Made by a program: the position numbers and the translations under genes
Assembly (NCBI RefSeq): GCF_016653405.1
Contig: NZ_NHSN01000025.1
Location: 62,001 to 126,000, forward strand
Source: Halorhodospira halophila
Lineage (GTDB): Bacteria > Pseudomonadota > Gammaproteobacteria > Nitrococcales > Halorhodospiraceae
Reading direction: 5' to 3'
DNA: 64,000 bases
Notes under the pieces: model-generated
The model's database searches: none
Told to the model about the DNA's origin: nothing
Seen by the model: the letters and a program-made list of their open reading frames with translations, nothing else
Part shown: piece after piece, positions 32,513 to 38,041 of the stretch
Layout of the letters: each line of letters begins with the position of its first letter
Numbering within the stretch: position 1 is the stretch's first letter

Positions 32513-32890
32513 ATGGAACACGTAGCCTTCGGTAGCGAGGACATCGAGAACACCCTCGCCAAGATGGACGACGGCCAGCTCGACGGCCTGGCCTTCGGCG
32601 CCATCCAGCTCGACGGCGACGGCAACATCCTTCAGTACAACGCCGCGGAGGGCGACATCACCGGCCGCGACCCGAAGGAGGTCATCGGCAAGAACTTCTT
32701 CAAGGACGTGGCCCCGTGCACTGACAGCCCGGAGTTCTACGGCAAGTTCAAGGAAGGGGTGGCCTCGGGCAACCTGAACACGATGTTCGAGTACACCTTC
32801 GATTACCAAATGACGCCCACGAAGGTGAAGGTGCACATGAAGAAGGCCCTCTCCGGCGACAGCTACTGGGTCTTCGTCAAGCGCGTCTAG
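32513..32890 (+). CDS. pyp: Photoactive yellow protein (blue-light PAS photoreceptor)
   Basis: A 125-residue PAS-fold photoreceptor that binds trans-p-coumaric acid as a thioester to Cys69 and photoisomerises it in blue light; in H. halophila it is linked to negative phototaxis. All chromophore-pocket residues are present: Tyr42, Glu46, Thr50, Arg52 and Cys69 (VAPCTDS). The sequence reads as the H. halophila protein nearly residue for residue; from memory the published one has Gln at 56, whereas this has Glu. AAAGGAG lies seven bases before the ATG, and codon use is strongly C/G-ending, as for an abundant protein. pcl and tal, which supply the chromophore, follow. Confidence 0.98.
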
Positions 32891-32948: not shown

Positions 32949-34133
32949 ATGCAAGGGCTGAATGCCGATGAAGTGCTGCGGTTGCTGCGCAGCCTGATCC
33001 CCGGCGAGCTGGCCACCGGCCGCGGTCAACGGGGCGACCCGCCCGAAGCGCAGGACCTGTGCGCCGATAGCCGCCTGGATGCCGAACCAATCCGGGCGGA
33101 CTCCCTGGATCGACTCAATCTAGCCAGCGCGCTCAACCGCTTCTTCCGCCTGCATGAGACCGGTGTGGAGGACCGTCTGCTGGCCGTGCGCCGGATCGGC
33201 GACATGGCCGAACTCATCGCCGACGCCAGTCAGCACACCAGCGGCCTGACCTTCTCGACCTCGGGCAGCACGGGCACCCCGCAGCCGCACCACCACAGCT
33301 GGGCGGCGCTGACCCAGGAGGCCGAGGCACTGGCCAACGCCCTGGGCAGTCACCCGCGGGTGATCGCCTGGCTGCCCGTCCACCACCTCTACGGTTTCGT
33401 CTTCGGCGTCGCCCTGCCCCGCGCGCTGGGCAGCACCGTGATCGAGAGCCACGCCGCGCCCACCGCCCTGTTCCGCGAGCCGGCACCTGACGACCTGATT
33501 GCCACCGTCCCGGCACGCTGGCGTTACCTGTTCGATAGCAATCACCGCTTCCCCGGCGGCACGGGCATCAGCTCGACCGCCGCGCTGGAGACCGCCTGCC
33601 GCAACGGGCTGTTGCAGGCCGGCCTGGACGCGCTGCTGGAGGTCTACGGCGCCACCGAGGCCGGCGGGATCGGCCTGCGCTGGGCACCCTCGGAGGACTA
33701 CCGCCTGCTGCCCCACTGGCAGCGCGACGCGGACGGCAACCTCCAGCGCACTCAACCCGATGGTGCAGCGGTGACCGTGGCCCCGCTCGATCGCCTCCAG
33801 TGGCGGGACGAGCGGGTCTTCCGACCCACCGGACGCATCGATGACATCATTCAGATCGGCGGTGTGAACGTCTCTCCGGGGCACGTCGCGCGGCGCCTCG
33901 AAAGCCACGAGGCCGTTGCCGCCTGCGCGGTCCGCAGCCACGGCGAAGGCAGTCGTCGGCGCCTGAAGGCGTTCATCGTTCCCGCGCGTTCCGACGCCGA
34001 TCCTGAAACGCTGCGCCAGACGCTCGAGAACTGGATCTGGGAGCACCTACCGGCGGTCGAGCGACCCACGGATCTGCGTATCGGCACCGAGCTTCCGCGC
34101 AACGCCATGGGCAAACTGCAGGACTGGGACTGA
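32949..34133 (+). CDS. pcl: p-Coumarate:CoA ligase-type adenylating enzyme for the PYP chromophore
   Basis: An ANL-superfamily enzyme of 394 residues that activates p-coumarate for attachment to PYP. The P-loop is at residues 101-112 (TFSTSGSTGTPQ), the A5-type motif at 231-240 (EVYGATEAGG) and the hinge region near GRIDDIIQIGGVNVSP. Plant 4-coumarate ligases are about 540 residues with the P-loop near 190, so the N-terminal subdomain is much reduced. Residues about 1-95 instead resemble an acyl-carrier domain, with ADSLDRLNLASALNRFF (Ser52) matching the phosphopantetheine-site pattern. It sits between pyp and tal; AAAGG precedes the ATG. Confidence 0.9.
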   Translation: MQGLNADEVLRLLRSLIPGELATGRGQRGDPPEAQDLCADSRLDAEPIRADSLDRLNLASALNRFFRLHETGVEDRLLAVRRIGDMAELIADASQHTSGLTFSTSGSTGTPQPHHHSWAALTQEAEALANALGSHPRVIAWLPVHHLYGFVFGVALPRALGSTVIESHAAPTALFREPAPDDLIATVPARWRYLFDSNHRFPGGTGISSTAALETACRNGLLQAGLDALLEVYGATEAGGIGLRWAPSEDYRLLPHWQRDADGNLQRTQPDGAAVTVAPLDRLQWRDERVFRPTGRIDDIIQIGGVNVSPGHVARRLESHEAVAACAVRSHGEGSRRRLKAFIVPARSDADPETLRQTLENWIWEHLPAVERPTDLRIGTELPRNAMGKLQDWD

Positions 34134-34138
34134 ACAGC

Positions 34139-35731
34139 ATGGCTGCAGTGGATCTGGCCGGTGGCCTGAGCGCCGCCGATATCGAGGGTATCGGACACGG
34201 CAGCAGCTCAGCCACGGTCTTAGCGGCCGGCTGGGAACGCTTGCGTGCCGCTGAGGGCTACCTCCAGCGCCTCGTGGACGAACGCCGGCTGGTCTACGGT
34301 GTCACCACCGGCTACGGACCGCTGGCCACCAGCCGGATCGACCCCTCCGCCTCGCGCACCCTGCAGCGCAACCTGGTCTACCACCTGTGCAGCGGCGTCG
34401 GCGATCCGCTCTCCCGTTGCCACACCCGCGCCACGCTGGCCGCGCGCATTGCCAGTGTCACCCGCGGACACTCCGGGGTCACGCCGGCGGTTGTGGAGCG
34501 CCTGCTGGGGTGGCTGGAGCAGGACGTGATCCCGGAAGTGCCGGCCATCGGGACCGTCGGCGCCAGCGGCGACCTGACCCCGCTGGCCCACGTGGCGCGG
34601 GCCCTGATGGGGGAGGGCCGGGTGAGCGTCCACGGCGGCGCCTGGGAGCCTGCTGACGCCGCCCAGCGCCGCCTGGGCTGGGAACCGTGGACCCTGGACG
34701 GCAAGGACGCCATCGCCCTGGTCAACGGCACCTCGACCACCGCCGGCATCAGTGCCGTCACCGGCGCGGGCGCCGAGCGGGCGGCCGGGATCTGTGCGGT
34801 ACTGGGCATGCTCTACGCCGAGTTGCTTGGCGGCCATGCCGAGGCCTTCCAGCCGGCCATCGGCGCCGCCCGCCCTCACCCTGGCCAGATGCGGGCCCAC
34901 GCCTGGCTCACCGCCCTGGCCGAGGACAGCCGGCGCCTGCAGCCGTGGCCCGGCGTGCCACCCCGGCTGGATGAAGAGCAAGGCGCCGTCCTGCCCGACC
35001 AGCCGCTGCCCCAGGACCCCTACTCGATCCGCTGCCTGCCTCAGGCGCTGGGCGCGGTGCTGGACAGCATCACCTTCCACAACCAGACCGTGGCCAGCGA
35101 GCTGGATGCGGCCAGCGACAACCCGCTGCTCTTCCCCGAGGAGGGGCGCGTGCTGCATGGCGGCAATTTCTTTGGCCAGCACCTGGCCTTTGCCGCCGAC
35201 GCCCTGAACAACGCCCTGGTCCAACTGGCCGTGCACAGTGAACGGCGCATCAACCGCATCACCGACCCGGTGCGCAGCGGCTTCCCGGCCTTCATGCAGC
35301 CCCGCCAGACCGGTCTGCACAGCGGCTTTATGGGCGCCCAGGTGACGGCGTCGGCCCTGGTCGCGGAGATGCGCACCGGCGCCCACCCGGCCTCGATCCA
35401 GTCAGTGCCGACCAACGCCGACAACCAGGACATCGTCCCCATGAGCACCCGCGCCGCCCGCCAGGCGGCCACCAACCTGGACCACCTGCAGCGGATCCTG
35501 GCCATCGAGGCGCTGGTCCTGGCCCAGGCCCTGGAACTGACCGACAGGACCGGTTTCAGCCACAGCGCGCGTCAGACCCTGGCGTGGGTCCGCGAACTGG
35601 CGCCGCCATTGGAGGCGGACCGCCCGCTGGCCGAGGAGATCGCCGCAGTCGCCGACGCCCTGGCCACGCCCCACCGGGCCCAACGCCTGGTCGCCGGGCT
35701 GCCGGGCGCCCCCCCGGGCCCGGCCTCCTGA
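34139..35731 (+). CDS. tal: Tyrosine ammonia-lyase
   Basis: A 530-residue member of the histidine/phenylalanine ammonia-lyase family that converts tyrosine to p-coumarate. The MIO cofactor triad Ala142-Ser143-Gly144 is in GTVGASGDLTPLAH. At the substrate-selectivity position (the His89 equivalent of Rhodobacter TAL) the sequence is NLVYHLCSG, with His82, which fits tyrosine rather than phenylalanine. The active-site Tyr53 (YGVTTGYG) and the HGGNFFGQH and SGFMGAQVTA motifs are intact. It starts five bases after the pcl stop with only a weak ribosome site, so it is probably coupled. Product and position make it the first enzyme of PYP chromophore supply. Confidence 0.93.
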   Translation: MAAVDLAGGLSAADIEGIGHGSSSATVLAAGWERLRAAEGYLQRLVDERRLVYGVTTGYGPLATSRIDPSASRTLQRNLVYHLCSGVGDPLSRCHTRATLAARIASVTRGHSGVTPAVVERLLGWLEQDVIPEVPAIGTVGASGDLTPLAHVARALMGEGRVSVHGGAWEPADAAQRRLGWEPWTLDGKDAIALVNGTSTTAGISAVTGAGAERAAGICAVLGMLYAELLGGHAEAFQPAIGAARPHPGQMRAHAWLTALAEDSRRLQPWPGVPPRLDEEQGAVLPDQPLPQDPYSIRCLPQALGAVLDSITFHNQTVASELDAASDNPLLFPEEGRVLHGGNFFGQHLAFAADALNNALVQLAVHSERRINRITDPVRSGFPAFMQPRQTGLHSGFMGAQVTASALVAEMRTGAHPASIQSVPTNADNQDIVPMSTRAARQAATNLDHLQRILAIEALVLAQALELTDRTGFSHSARQTLAWVRELAPPLEADRPLAEEIAAVADALATPHRAQRLVAGLPGAPPGPAS

Positions 35732-35735
35732 GGCC

Positions 35736-36320
35736 TCAGTCGCAGGGCTCACCCCGCTTGTCGTCGGCCGGCCTTGGCCGGCCGGTCATGGCCACCTCGA
35801 TGGCGGCCACTTTCACGCCGTCGCGACAAAGGGTGATGGACCCGGCGATACCGTGCCACCAGTCATTTGGCGCGAACTTGAACCCCTCCGACCCGGTGCC
35901 CGCCGCGACCCGATGACCCGGCCCGGCGCCACGCCCCCGGGCGAGGAGCTGCTCCGGTTCCGGCGCCTGGCCGGATGCGGCCTCGCCGCGGAACAGGATC
36001 CAGCCGTCATCCCAGCCCTGCGCCTCGCACCCGCTCTGCGGGGTGCCGCCGCACAGGGTGACGATCTCGTCGTGGTCCAGCGCCTCGATGCGGGCCCGCT
36101 CCAGCCCGGCGAGGAGCTCCCGCTGCCAGGCCCAGGCACGGACCTCGTCCACTCCAGCGCCCAACCGGGGCGCTGCCACGGCCGCCAGCCCGGCAACCAG
36201 GGCGAGGACCACCAGCAGCTCGGTGAGGGTAAAGGCCGGGCTCAGTCGCCCCAGCAGACCTCGACGCCCTCGGGGCCACTGCCCCGCTCGCCGCGGTGAT
36301 CGAGGGTGAATTCCGTACAC
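35736..36320 (-). CDS. fimT: FimT/GspH-type minor pilin
   Basis: A type IV pilin-like protein. The prepilin motif is A|FTLTELLVVLALVAG, with Glu at mature position 5 but Ala instead of Gly before the cleavage site. It ends with the C-terminal GspH-like domain. The open frame (194 codons) begins at a GTG at 36320, deep inside pilE. A CTG at 36245 overlapping the pilE stop (CTGA) would match the coupling seen elsewhere in the cluster and give a 169-residue protein with a four-residue leader; the start is undecided. The gene converges on tal. Confidence 0.8.
   Translation of the reverse strand: MYGIHPRSPRRAGQWPRGRRGLLGRLSPAFTLTELLVVLALVAGLAAVAAPRLGAGVDEVRAWAWQRELLAGLERARIEALDHDEIVTLCGGTPQSGCEAQGWDDGWILFRGEAASGQAPEPEQLLARGRGAGPGHRVAAGTGSEGFKFAPNDWWHGIAGSITLCRDGVKVAAIEVAMTGRPRPADDKRGEPCD
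35765..35784. terminator. Palindromic hairpin just past tal
   Basis: CGGCCGGCC (35765-35773), TT, then GGCCGGCCG (35776-35784) forms a stem of at least 8 bp. It is 34 bases past the tal stop and inside the fimT 3' end. It could end or protect the pyp-pcl-tal transcript; no T tract is present. Confidence 0.35.
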
Positions 36321-36658
36321 GCCTCATCCGCCTCCTGCGGACTTCCCGGCGCCGGTGTGGCAGTCAGGCGAAAGCCATCGGCGTCGGTCTCGACCCCCAG
36401 CTCATAAAGGCCCCGCTCGGACAACTCCGGGACCTCATCCGTACACGCGTCGTAGTCCATCTCCTGGATGAAACAGCGCTCCAGCGCCATCCAGGTATCC
36501 ATCAAGGTGGCGGTGGCGTCGCTACGGTCCGCCTGCACCTTGTACTGGCCGTAGAAGGGGTAGGCGATCGCCACCAGGATGGCCAAGATGGCCAAGACGA
36601 TCATCAGCTCGACCAGGCTGAAGCCAGCCACGCGGACGCGCTGATCCGCTCTCCTCAT
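36242..36658 (-). CDS. pilE: PilE-type pilin
   Basis: A 138-residue type IV pilin with a 12-residue leader cut at G12|F13 (GFSLVELMIVL, Glu at mature position 5), followed by the long hydrophobic N-terminal helix. Four Cys (CFIQEMDYDAC and two near the C terminus, ending VEVCWGD) could form the D-region disulfides. Size and position with the minor pilins suggest the PilE-like minor pilin rather than the main fibre subunit, but this is not certain. Confidence 0.87.
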   Translation of the reverse strand: MRRADQRVRVAGFSLVELMIVLAILAILVAIAYPFYGQYKVQADRSDATATLMDTWMALERCFIQEMDYDACTDEVPELSERGLYELGVETDADGFRLTATPAPGSPQEADEACTEFTLDHRGERGSGPEGVEVCWGD

Positions 36659-36668
36659 AACACCTTCC

Positions 36669-37100
36669 TCAATCCCGATTCCCGTAGGGACATTCGCGCT
36701 GCCAGCGGATTTCGAAGCGGTCAGCTGCTCCCGTTACCGGCGCCGGCGCGAGCACACCACCCGCTTGCAGGCAGACCTCGGCCCCGTCCCCCCCGCTGCC
36801 GCGAGCACAAATCCGAAATTGCCCGTCGTCGCGCTCGATACGGTAGCACGGCGCCGCCACCTCGCCGCTGCAGCACCCCGGATCGCCGGCTTCTTCGCGC
36901 CCGGCTGCCAGCTCCCGCCTTGCCCTGACCAGTTCATCGGCAGCCGCCAGGCGGGCTGCAGCCCGGGACTCCAAGGCCGCGGCCGCGCGCAGCTGCAGCG
37001 CGGTGGGGGCAACCACCGACCAGGACAACAGCGCCAACATGACCAACACGGCACTCAGGCCGAGCACCGCAAAGCCGAGCTGCCGGGAGGCCCCCGTCAA
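36669..37100 (-). CDS. pilX: PilX-type minor pilin
   Basis: A 143-residue protein starting at a TTG (37100) that overlaps the pilW stop as TTGA. The N terminus RQLGFAVLGLSAVLVML is a PilX-like hydrophobic segment; mature position 5 is Gly rather than Glu, as in other PilX/GspK-type tip pilins. The C-terminal part has several Cys. The open frame extends to 37481, but that portion is Gly/Arg-rich shadow of pilW. Confidence 0.78.
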   Translation of the reverse strand: MTGASRQLGFAVLGLSAVLVMLALLSWSVVAPTALQLRAAAALESRAAARLAAADELVRARRELAAGREEAGDPGCCSGEVAAPCYRIERDDGQFRICARGSGGDGAEVCLQAGGVLAPAPVTGAADRFEIRWQRECPYGNRD

Positions 37101-38041
37101 GGCAGCCTCCCGTGGATCGGCACCGTCACCGTCTGGACCTGCTCCGCGCCGGTCGCACCCCGCTGGCCACCGGTGCGGATGCGTGCCGTAAAGCGCACGG
37201 CACACACCCGCAGCCAATCCTCCACCTCCTCCGCGCGCTGGAAAGGCCCTGGATGATCCGGGACCTGGGCCGGGTCGTCGGCCCCCGGGCACTCGGCGAA
37301 GCCCATCTCCAGCGCCTCGACCCCGCGCAGGATCGGCTGCGGAGCCCCCTCGCCACGGCCGAGGTTCAGGGTCGGCACCCCATCGACGCCTCCGCCATCC
37401 GACCACCGCAACCGCCGCACCTGGACGGGCGACGCATCGTCGTCCTCCGCGGACTCCTCCTCCGGCCACCAGGGGACCCACGCCACCCCGCGCTCGGGCA
37501 GGTCGTGGTCCTCGCCCAGCCCGTCCAGGGTGAGATCCTTGGCGCCATCCTGCGCCTCGGCCTCGAGCAGGAACAGGCCCTCGGCATTACCGACCAGGAC
37601 CTTGGCCGGCAGGCTTCCCAACGCCTCCTCGGCCGGCTCATCCAGCTCGATTTGCGCCTCCGGGGCCGCTACCTCGATGGCATCGTAGCCGGTCGCCACG
37701 CTCCGCGGCGCCTCCTTACCGCGCACCCAGGTCAGCTCGCCTTCATCGGCGCGCAGACCCGGCGGATCGAGCTGGGCCCCGATCACCTCGCCGGCCGCGC
37801 CCTCGCCTCGATACAGCGGGGTCCGGCCACCGCAGGGGACCTCCCCGGCCAGCGCGACTTCGCCATCGAGGACCTGACGCAACACCGCGCCCTTATCCGC
37901 CACCCGCCCCAGGTCCTCCACGGTGGCGCTGGCCCGCAGCGCGCTGCCGAGGATCTGCACCGCCGCGAGCAGCGCCACCGCCGCCACGGCCAGCGCCACC
38001 AGCAGCTCGACCAAGGTCACGCCATAGGCACGCCCGGTCAT
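37097..38041 (-). CDS. pilW: PilW-type minor pilin
   Basis: A 314-residue minor pilin, the largest of the cluster as expected for PilW. The prepilin site is G7|VTLVELLVALAV with Glu at mature position 5. The ATG at 38041 overlaps the pilV stop (ATGA). Minor pilins of this set form the initiating tip of the pilus. Confidence 0.85.
   Translation of the reverse strand: MTGRAYGVTLVELLVALAVAAVALLAAVQILGSALRASATVEDLGRVADKGAVLRQVLDGEVALAGEVPCGGRTPLYRGEGAAGEVIGAQLDPPGLRADEGELTWVRGKEAPRSVATGYDAIEVAAPEAQIELDEPAEEALGSLPAKVLVGNAEGLFLLEAEAQDGAKDLTLDGLGEDHDLPERGVAWVPWWPEEESAEDDDASPVQVRRLRWSDGGGVDGVPTLNLGRGEGAPQPILRGVEALEMGFAECPGADDPAQVPDHPGPFQRAEEVEDWLRVCAVRFTARIRTGGQRGATGAEQVQTVTVPIHGRLP

Follow-up and report, generated by a model that had tools for sequence, protein, structure and literature searches.

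In the published route to the textbook photoreceptor photoactive yellow protein (PYP), a ligase joins p-coumarate to CoA, and the resulting coumaroyl-CoA reacts with Cys69 of apo-PYP (PMC12826048, PMC9664959). Is this route complete if the ligase itself carries an acyl-carrier-like domain at its N-terminus? We analysed this question for the pyp–pcl–lyase locus of Halorhodospira halophila, located in a window of 64,000 nucleotides (contig NZ_NHSN01000025.1, positions 62,001 to 126,000 of the forward strand). Our main reading, to which we assign a probability of roughly 0.6, is that Pcl is an ACP–ligase fusion, in which coumarate would be loaded onto the enzyme's own phosphopantetheine arm and transferred from there to Cys69 of PYP.

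The three genes are co-directional, with gaps of 58 bp between pyp and pcl and 5 bp between pcl and the lyase gene (Table 1). The match of the pyp product to PYP chains in the PDB (1kou and others) spans its full length. The window Pcl is a full-length member of the TIGR02372 family (4-coumarate--CoA ligase, PYP-linked), with a score of 641.9 bits against a cut-off of 334.7 over residues 2–391. The original prediction had noted that the ANL P-loop of Pcl comes early in the protein, at residue 101; the early position was confirmed, but the motif itself, TSGSTG, lies at residues 104–109. The Pfam AMP-binding match begins only at profile position 170, at residue 104, and no Pfam match to the ANL N-terminal subdomain was detected in the window Pcl, indicating the absence of this subdomain from the protein.

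Table 1. Features of the pyp–pcl–lyase locus (positions in the window) and plasmid-encoded PAS proteins next to related ligases (locus:positions)
Feature	Position	Strand	Description	Basis
pyp	32513..32890	+	photoactive yellow protein, 125 aa; acceptor (Cys69)	TIGR02373, 224.9 bits
pcl	32949..34133	+	p-coumarate ligase, 394 aa	TIGR02372, residues 2-391
Acyl-carrier-like N-terminal domain	32949..33233	+	residues 1-95 of Pcl	PDB profile search, Pfam on relatives, hhalign with shuffles
Codons of Asp51 (GAC) and Ser52 (TCC)	33099..33104	+	predicted phosphopantetheine attachment site	invariant columns
ANL P-loop	33258..33275	+	TSGSTG, residues 104-109	sequence reading; AMP-binding match starts at residue 104
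ANL core	33258..33683	+	residues 104-245; AMP-binding profile positions 170-332 only	Pfam
ANL C-terminal domain (AMP-binding_C)	33897..34115	+	residues 317-389, with the lysine of PRNAMGK	Pfam
Aromatic amino acid lyase	34139..35731	+	presumed tyrosine ammonia-lyase, p-coumarate source	PF00221, 483 bits; operon position
Plasmid PAS proteins	L045:7625-7993, L046:2302-2658, L047:5135-5524, L048:2310-2669, L050:2018-2380			

The segment that precedes the P-loop lies within the TIGR02372 model, the initial part of which gives residues 1–95 by themselves a score of 140.9 bits. Since the segment is inside a published family model, an annotation or frameshift artefact is excluded; judged by the model, the segment is a regular component of the PYP-linked ligases. 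As a single sequence, residues 1–95 retrieved nothing from Pfam or the PDB, and PF00550 gave no match to the window Pcl sequence alone at E<=10. We gathered relatives of Pcl from whole genomes and plasmids, and built a profile from 21 segments. When all PDB sequences were compared with this profile, acyl carrier proteins ranked first (2fq0, E 3.2e-4), with the 2fq0 alignment covering positions 33–93 and placing DSL over DSL; the noise level, as seen from weak matches to T4 lysozyme (E about 0.03), lay beneath the top matches. PF00550 was matched by seven of the 21 segments, the best of which, L013 (E 1.2e-4, 22.7 bits), was the single segment above the Pfam PP-binding cut-off of 20.8 bits, the others being sub-threshold.

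Comparison of profiles by hhalign gave a match of 81.8% (P 1.1e-5) between the segment profile and a mixed carrier set, compared with 10.5% for the highest-scoring of 100 column-shuffled controls. The best match, at 89.4% (P 2e-6), was to ACPs from aryl-polyene-type loci, while FAS carriers reached 78.9% and NRPS/PKS carriers 77.0%. A PHROGs search returned only weak, mostly unnamed matches, among them an acyl carrier family (E 0.26), and AlphaFold2 models from three close sequences were too poor for a fold search (pLDDT 57 for the domain and 39 for the whole protein). In common with PF00550 carriers, the Pcl segment has the DSL motif, the helix II–IV spacing and the invariant Ser; it differs from them in its fusion to the ANL N-terminus, in a window sequence below detection and in a neutral helix II. 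The acyl-carrier likeness of residues 1–95, originally read by eye, was upheld by the agreement of the PDB profile search, PF00550 on relatives and hhalign with shuffles. On this evidence from sequence, residues 1–95 of Pcl are almost certainly a diverged acyl-carrier domain, homologous to known carriers.

The same genome encodes another fusion of an AMP-ligase and a carrier domain, a protein of about 980 aa (L009 on G000:C1, reverse strand, overlapping L066), with an acyltransferase part read by eye. This protein is a ligase–carrier fusion of another type, poorly related to the Pcl carrier. The carrier of the 982-aa ligase–ACP–acyltransferase type was considered as a source of the Pcl carrier, and was set aside as a weak candidate (hhalign 3.6%).

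The Ser52 codon, TCC, is located at 33102–33104, within ADSLDRLNLASALNRFF. We aligned 22 PYP- or PYP-like-linked ligases, all with an intact P-loop and reaching down to about 21% identity in the segment. Asp51 and Ser52 were the only invariant residues among the first 95 (22/22), as strict as the P-loop glycines; the serine of the DSL pattern, whose lack of conservation would have refuted the original prediction, is thus kept in all PYP-linked ligases examined. The segment and the DS[LI] motif were kept in every collected relative with an intact P-loop, and four further relatives (L138-L141) likewise read DS. The Ser52 codon is TCN in some relatives and AGY in others, and this use of both serine codon families argues for selection on the serine itself. 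Loss of the serine was seen only in L042:1492-2643 of the alphaproteobacterium G725, a genome without PYP, in which the DS motif is lost, as is the P-loop (KAAARDEK), with the frame still open; this gene is possibly a decaying or repurposed Pcl-like copy. We consider it quite likely that Ser52 is phosphopantetheinylated in vivo. A weak point of this proposal is the combination of a host with AcpS as the only phosphopantetheinyl transferase found in its genome and a helix II that is neutral in the window domain, compared with acidic in FAS ACP (0 vs -6). This helix is mildly acidic in alphaproteobacterial Pcl carrier domains.

The relationships of the ligase core were analysed through TIGR02372 matches in 369 gammaproteobacterial genomes, which fell into three groups. 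The first consists of PYP-linked full-length TIGR02372 proteins; the second, which gave the best non-PYP matches, of ligases matching model positions 95–385 (E 1e-43 to 1e-30); and the third of general acyl-CoA synthetases, matched mainly over the C-terminal domain. A stand-alone ACP ORF was present 5' of the ligase on the same strand in 11 of the 12 high-scoring second-group genes examined, nearly always within about 1 kb, compared with no ACP within about 6.5 kb of the lower-ranked ANL genes of the third group (0/14; Fisher p 1.6e-6). Some second-group ligases have an extra C-terminal part that by eye is ApeI-type dehydratase-like. We interpret these second-group ligases as ApeH-type enzymes of aryl-polyene clusters. 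ApeH is reported to load its ACP without a CoA thioester intermediate (PMC8253772, on earlier in vitro work; PMC8041823). Aryl-polyene ligases near carrier proteins had been offered as a precedent for Pcl, and they proved to be its nearest relative group. This assignment is carried by the score ranking and the ACP neighbours and not by the tree of ligase cores, which has no outside root and in which Pcl, the ApeH-like group and other ANL proteins are separate. An ACP gene 5' of a ligase is the expected starting point for an N-terminal carrier fusion.

With the PYP-linked group set aside, ApeH-type synthetases thus come closest to Pcl in their ligase core; they also activate aromatic acids and have an ACP encoded immediately upstream. 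Their ACP is separate and their ANL N-subdomain is present (about 130 residues before the P-loop), whereas Pcl has a fused carrier and no N-subdomain; their product enters a polyketide chain, whereas that of Pcl goes to a photoreceptor cysteine. By this comparison, Pcl appears to work like an ApeH-type synthetase, yet lies outside that subgroup. The short ANL enzyme 4gs5 (358 aa) likewise has little sequence before the P-loop, with a profile match from chain residue 33, but here, unlike in Pcl, the missing part is not replaced by a carrier domain.

The occurrence of Pcl follows that of PYP. Full Pcl was detected in six of the 369 gammaproteobacterial genomes and intact Pcl in six of 385 alphaproteobacterial genomes, and PYP was present in all of them (6/6 in each sample, 12/12 together), while PYP overall was found in seven and eight genomes, respectively (Fisher p 2e-12 and 6e-12 for co-occurrence). 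L042 was the sole Pcl-like gene without PYP in the two samples. Conversely, a Pcl-type ligase was not found in the PYP genomes G280, G764 and G880 of these samples. In G764 and G880, the PYP domain sits inside a longer open frame. In G280 (L151:4644-6815), a PYP-like gene with Cys69 is followed by a small ORF and then by an unrelated-looking 472-aa ANL-like frame, which has a conventional N-part and lacks both a clear P-loop motif and a carrier domain; this arrangement may represent a different way of loading a PYP-like protein. These genomes indicate that the carrier is universal only to the Pcl ligase family and not to PYP. A neighbouring pcl has been recorded at 32% of pyp loci, with many loci lacking it (PMC12826048).

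The carrier–ligase also occurs on plasmids of Methylobacterium, Rhizobium, Sphingomonas and Caballeronia, where it adjoins a diguanylate cyclase and a PAS protein of roughly 120 aa. These PAS proteins are mostly annotated as 'phosphonate transporter', and otherwise as hypothetical or PAS-domain proteins. They align with PYP, with Glu46 and Cys69 kept and Tyr42 kept in most, and on these residues they are probably misannotated distant PYPs.

Sequence comparison thus brings together a carrier domain, an invariant serine, a ligase akin to ACP-loading enzymes and a link to PYP. From this combination, we infer phosphopantetheine on Ser52, acyl loading onto the arm and direct transfer to PYP. In the proposed pathway, Pcl would combine, in one fused protein, an acyl carrier domain (residues 1–95) and an aryl-acid-activating ANL ligase that would share a descent group with the aryl-polyene acyl-ACP synthetases. 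Ser52 would be brought into the holo form by a phosphopantetheinyl transferase of the host. As expected from family knowledge, the lyase would supply p-coumarate, and Pcl would adenylate it to p-coumaroyl-AMP. The acyl group would then move to the phosphopantetheine on Ser52 of the enzyme's own or a partner-subunit carrier, a step suggested by the sequence evidence, and the carrier-bound thioester would exchange with Cys69 of apo-PYP, which the gene just upstream encodes, as gene linkage and chemistry suggest. Only about 6 residues link the carrier domain to the P-loop strand; cis loading may therefore be sterically hard, and loading may take place between subunits. We lean slightly towards carrier-bound coumarate as the main donor to PYP. 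The chances appear even that the PYP chromophore comes from tethered p-coumaroyl-phosphopantetheine on Pcl by carrier-to-receptor transthioesterification, unlike the assumed coumaroyl-CoA route.

Other explanations of the segment have to be weighed against this pathway. Because it occupies the place of the ANL N-terminal subdomain, it could be a diverged form of that subdomain with a chance carrier motif. We reject this identity on profile comparison, in which hhalign gave 0.1% when the segment was compared with the nearest ligases' N-subdomain and 0.15% with other ANL proteins, versus 82–89% with ACPs, in a test of limited power in which two ANL sets score just 3.8% against each other; a chance motif is rejected on the basis of the column shuffles and the invariance of Asp51–Ser52. 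We consider this explanation extremely improbable, and the carrier segment stands in place of the ANL N-subdomain, as first proposed, in agreement with the AMP-binding match from profile position 170. A carrier by descent could also be vestigial, left over from an ACP–ligase ancestor, with Ser52 unmodified and Asp51–Ser52 serving as a helix cap or in packing on the ANL core. Divergence beyond single-sequence Pfam detection, the short linker, the neutral helix II and the presence of AcpS only in the host are consistent with such a remnant. However, Thr, Asn, Asp or Gly would also be acceptable in a helix cap, yet intact enzymes have none of these at the site, and Ser is kept across both codon families in an otherwise freely variable segment, making a vestigial carrier improbable.

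Alternatively, the carrier may be genuine and modified, with Pcl also or mainly releasing coumaroyl-CoA and the carrier acting as a buffer, as a secondary route or as an arm on which PYP docks. The published view has coumaroyl-CoA as donor, and FlxY, a ligase of the flexirubin pathway, forms 4-coumaroyl-CoA in vitro (PMC3992019). FlxY resembles Pcl in acting on p-coumarate alongside a TAL, as part of a pigment pathway; a fused carrier is not mentioned in the text consulted. Apo-PYP reacts with activated p-coumaroyl esters, even simple ones (PMC6273459), and a carrier is therefore not chemically required, which renders the transfer step easy but not exclusive. Against the release of coumaroyl-CoA, the nearest relatives adjoin ACP genes, the one characterised member dispenses with CoA, and the strict conservation of Ser implies a contribution of the arm to fitness; we regard this alternative as rather unlikely. 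In 2003, Kyndt et al. reportedly produced holo-PYP in E. coli with pcl (cited in PMC12826048), but E. coli possesses phosphopantetheinyl transferases, and this result thus does not discriminate between the routes.

Both the family library and the reviews call TIGR02372 proteins CoA ligases, and the carrier domain is unmentioned in the texts found. Of the two surveys that treat pCL as a CoA ligase, one (PMC12826048) contains neither 'acyl carrier' nor 'phosphopantetheine', and the other (PMC9664959) contains no word starting 'acyl'. In the openly accessible literature, we found no relevant paper on PYP paired with carrier proteins or a fused carrier, or on coumaroyl-ACP. What is new is the use, namely, an ACP–ligase fusion apparently dedicated to photoreceptor loading. 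The conserved carrier and invariant Ser in the ligase suggest that the published route is one step short or names an incorrect intermediate. If coumarate is indeed loaded on the Pcl carrier and handed to PYP, this would explain the selective delivery of a reactive aryl thioester to one cysteine, and supplying a phosphopantetheinyl transferase would improve the production of recombinant holo-PYP and PYP-based tags. It would also represent carrier-protein chemistry that serves sensor maturation instead of metabolite building.

A second PYP gene was detected in the same genome (G000:C18:27168-27530, in L154, G000:C18:22000-34000). Its product shares 61.6% identity with the first over 125 aa, and Tyr42, Glu46 and Cys69 are kept. 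No ligase or carrier gene was detected in the surrounding 12 kb, so the second PYP would have to share Pcl. In the window, the pyp operon is adjoined by minus-strand ORFs at 35736–38041, several of which have type IV pilin-like N-termini (GFSLVELMIVLAIL, GVTLVELLVALAVAAVA) and were read by eye as minor pilin genes.
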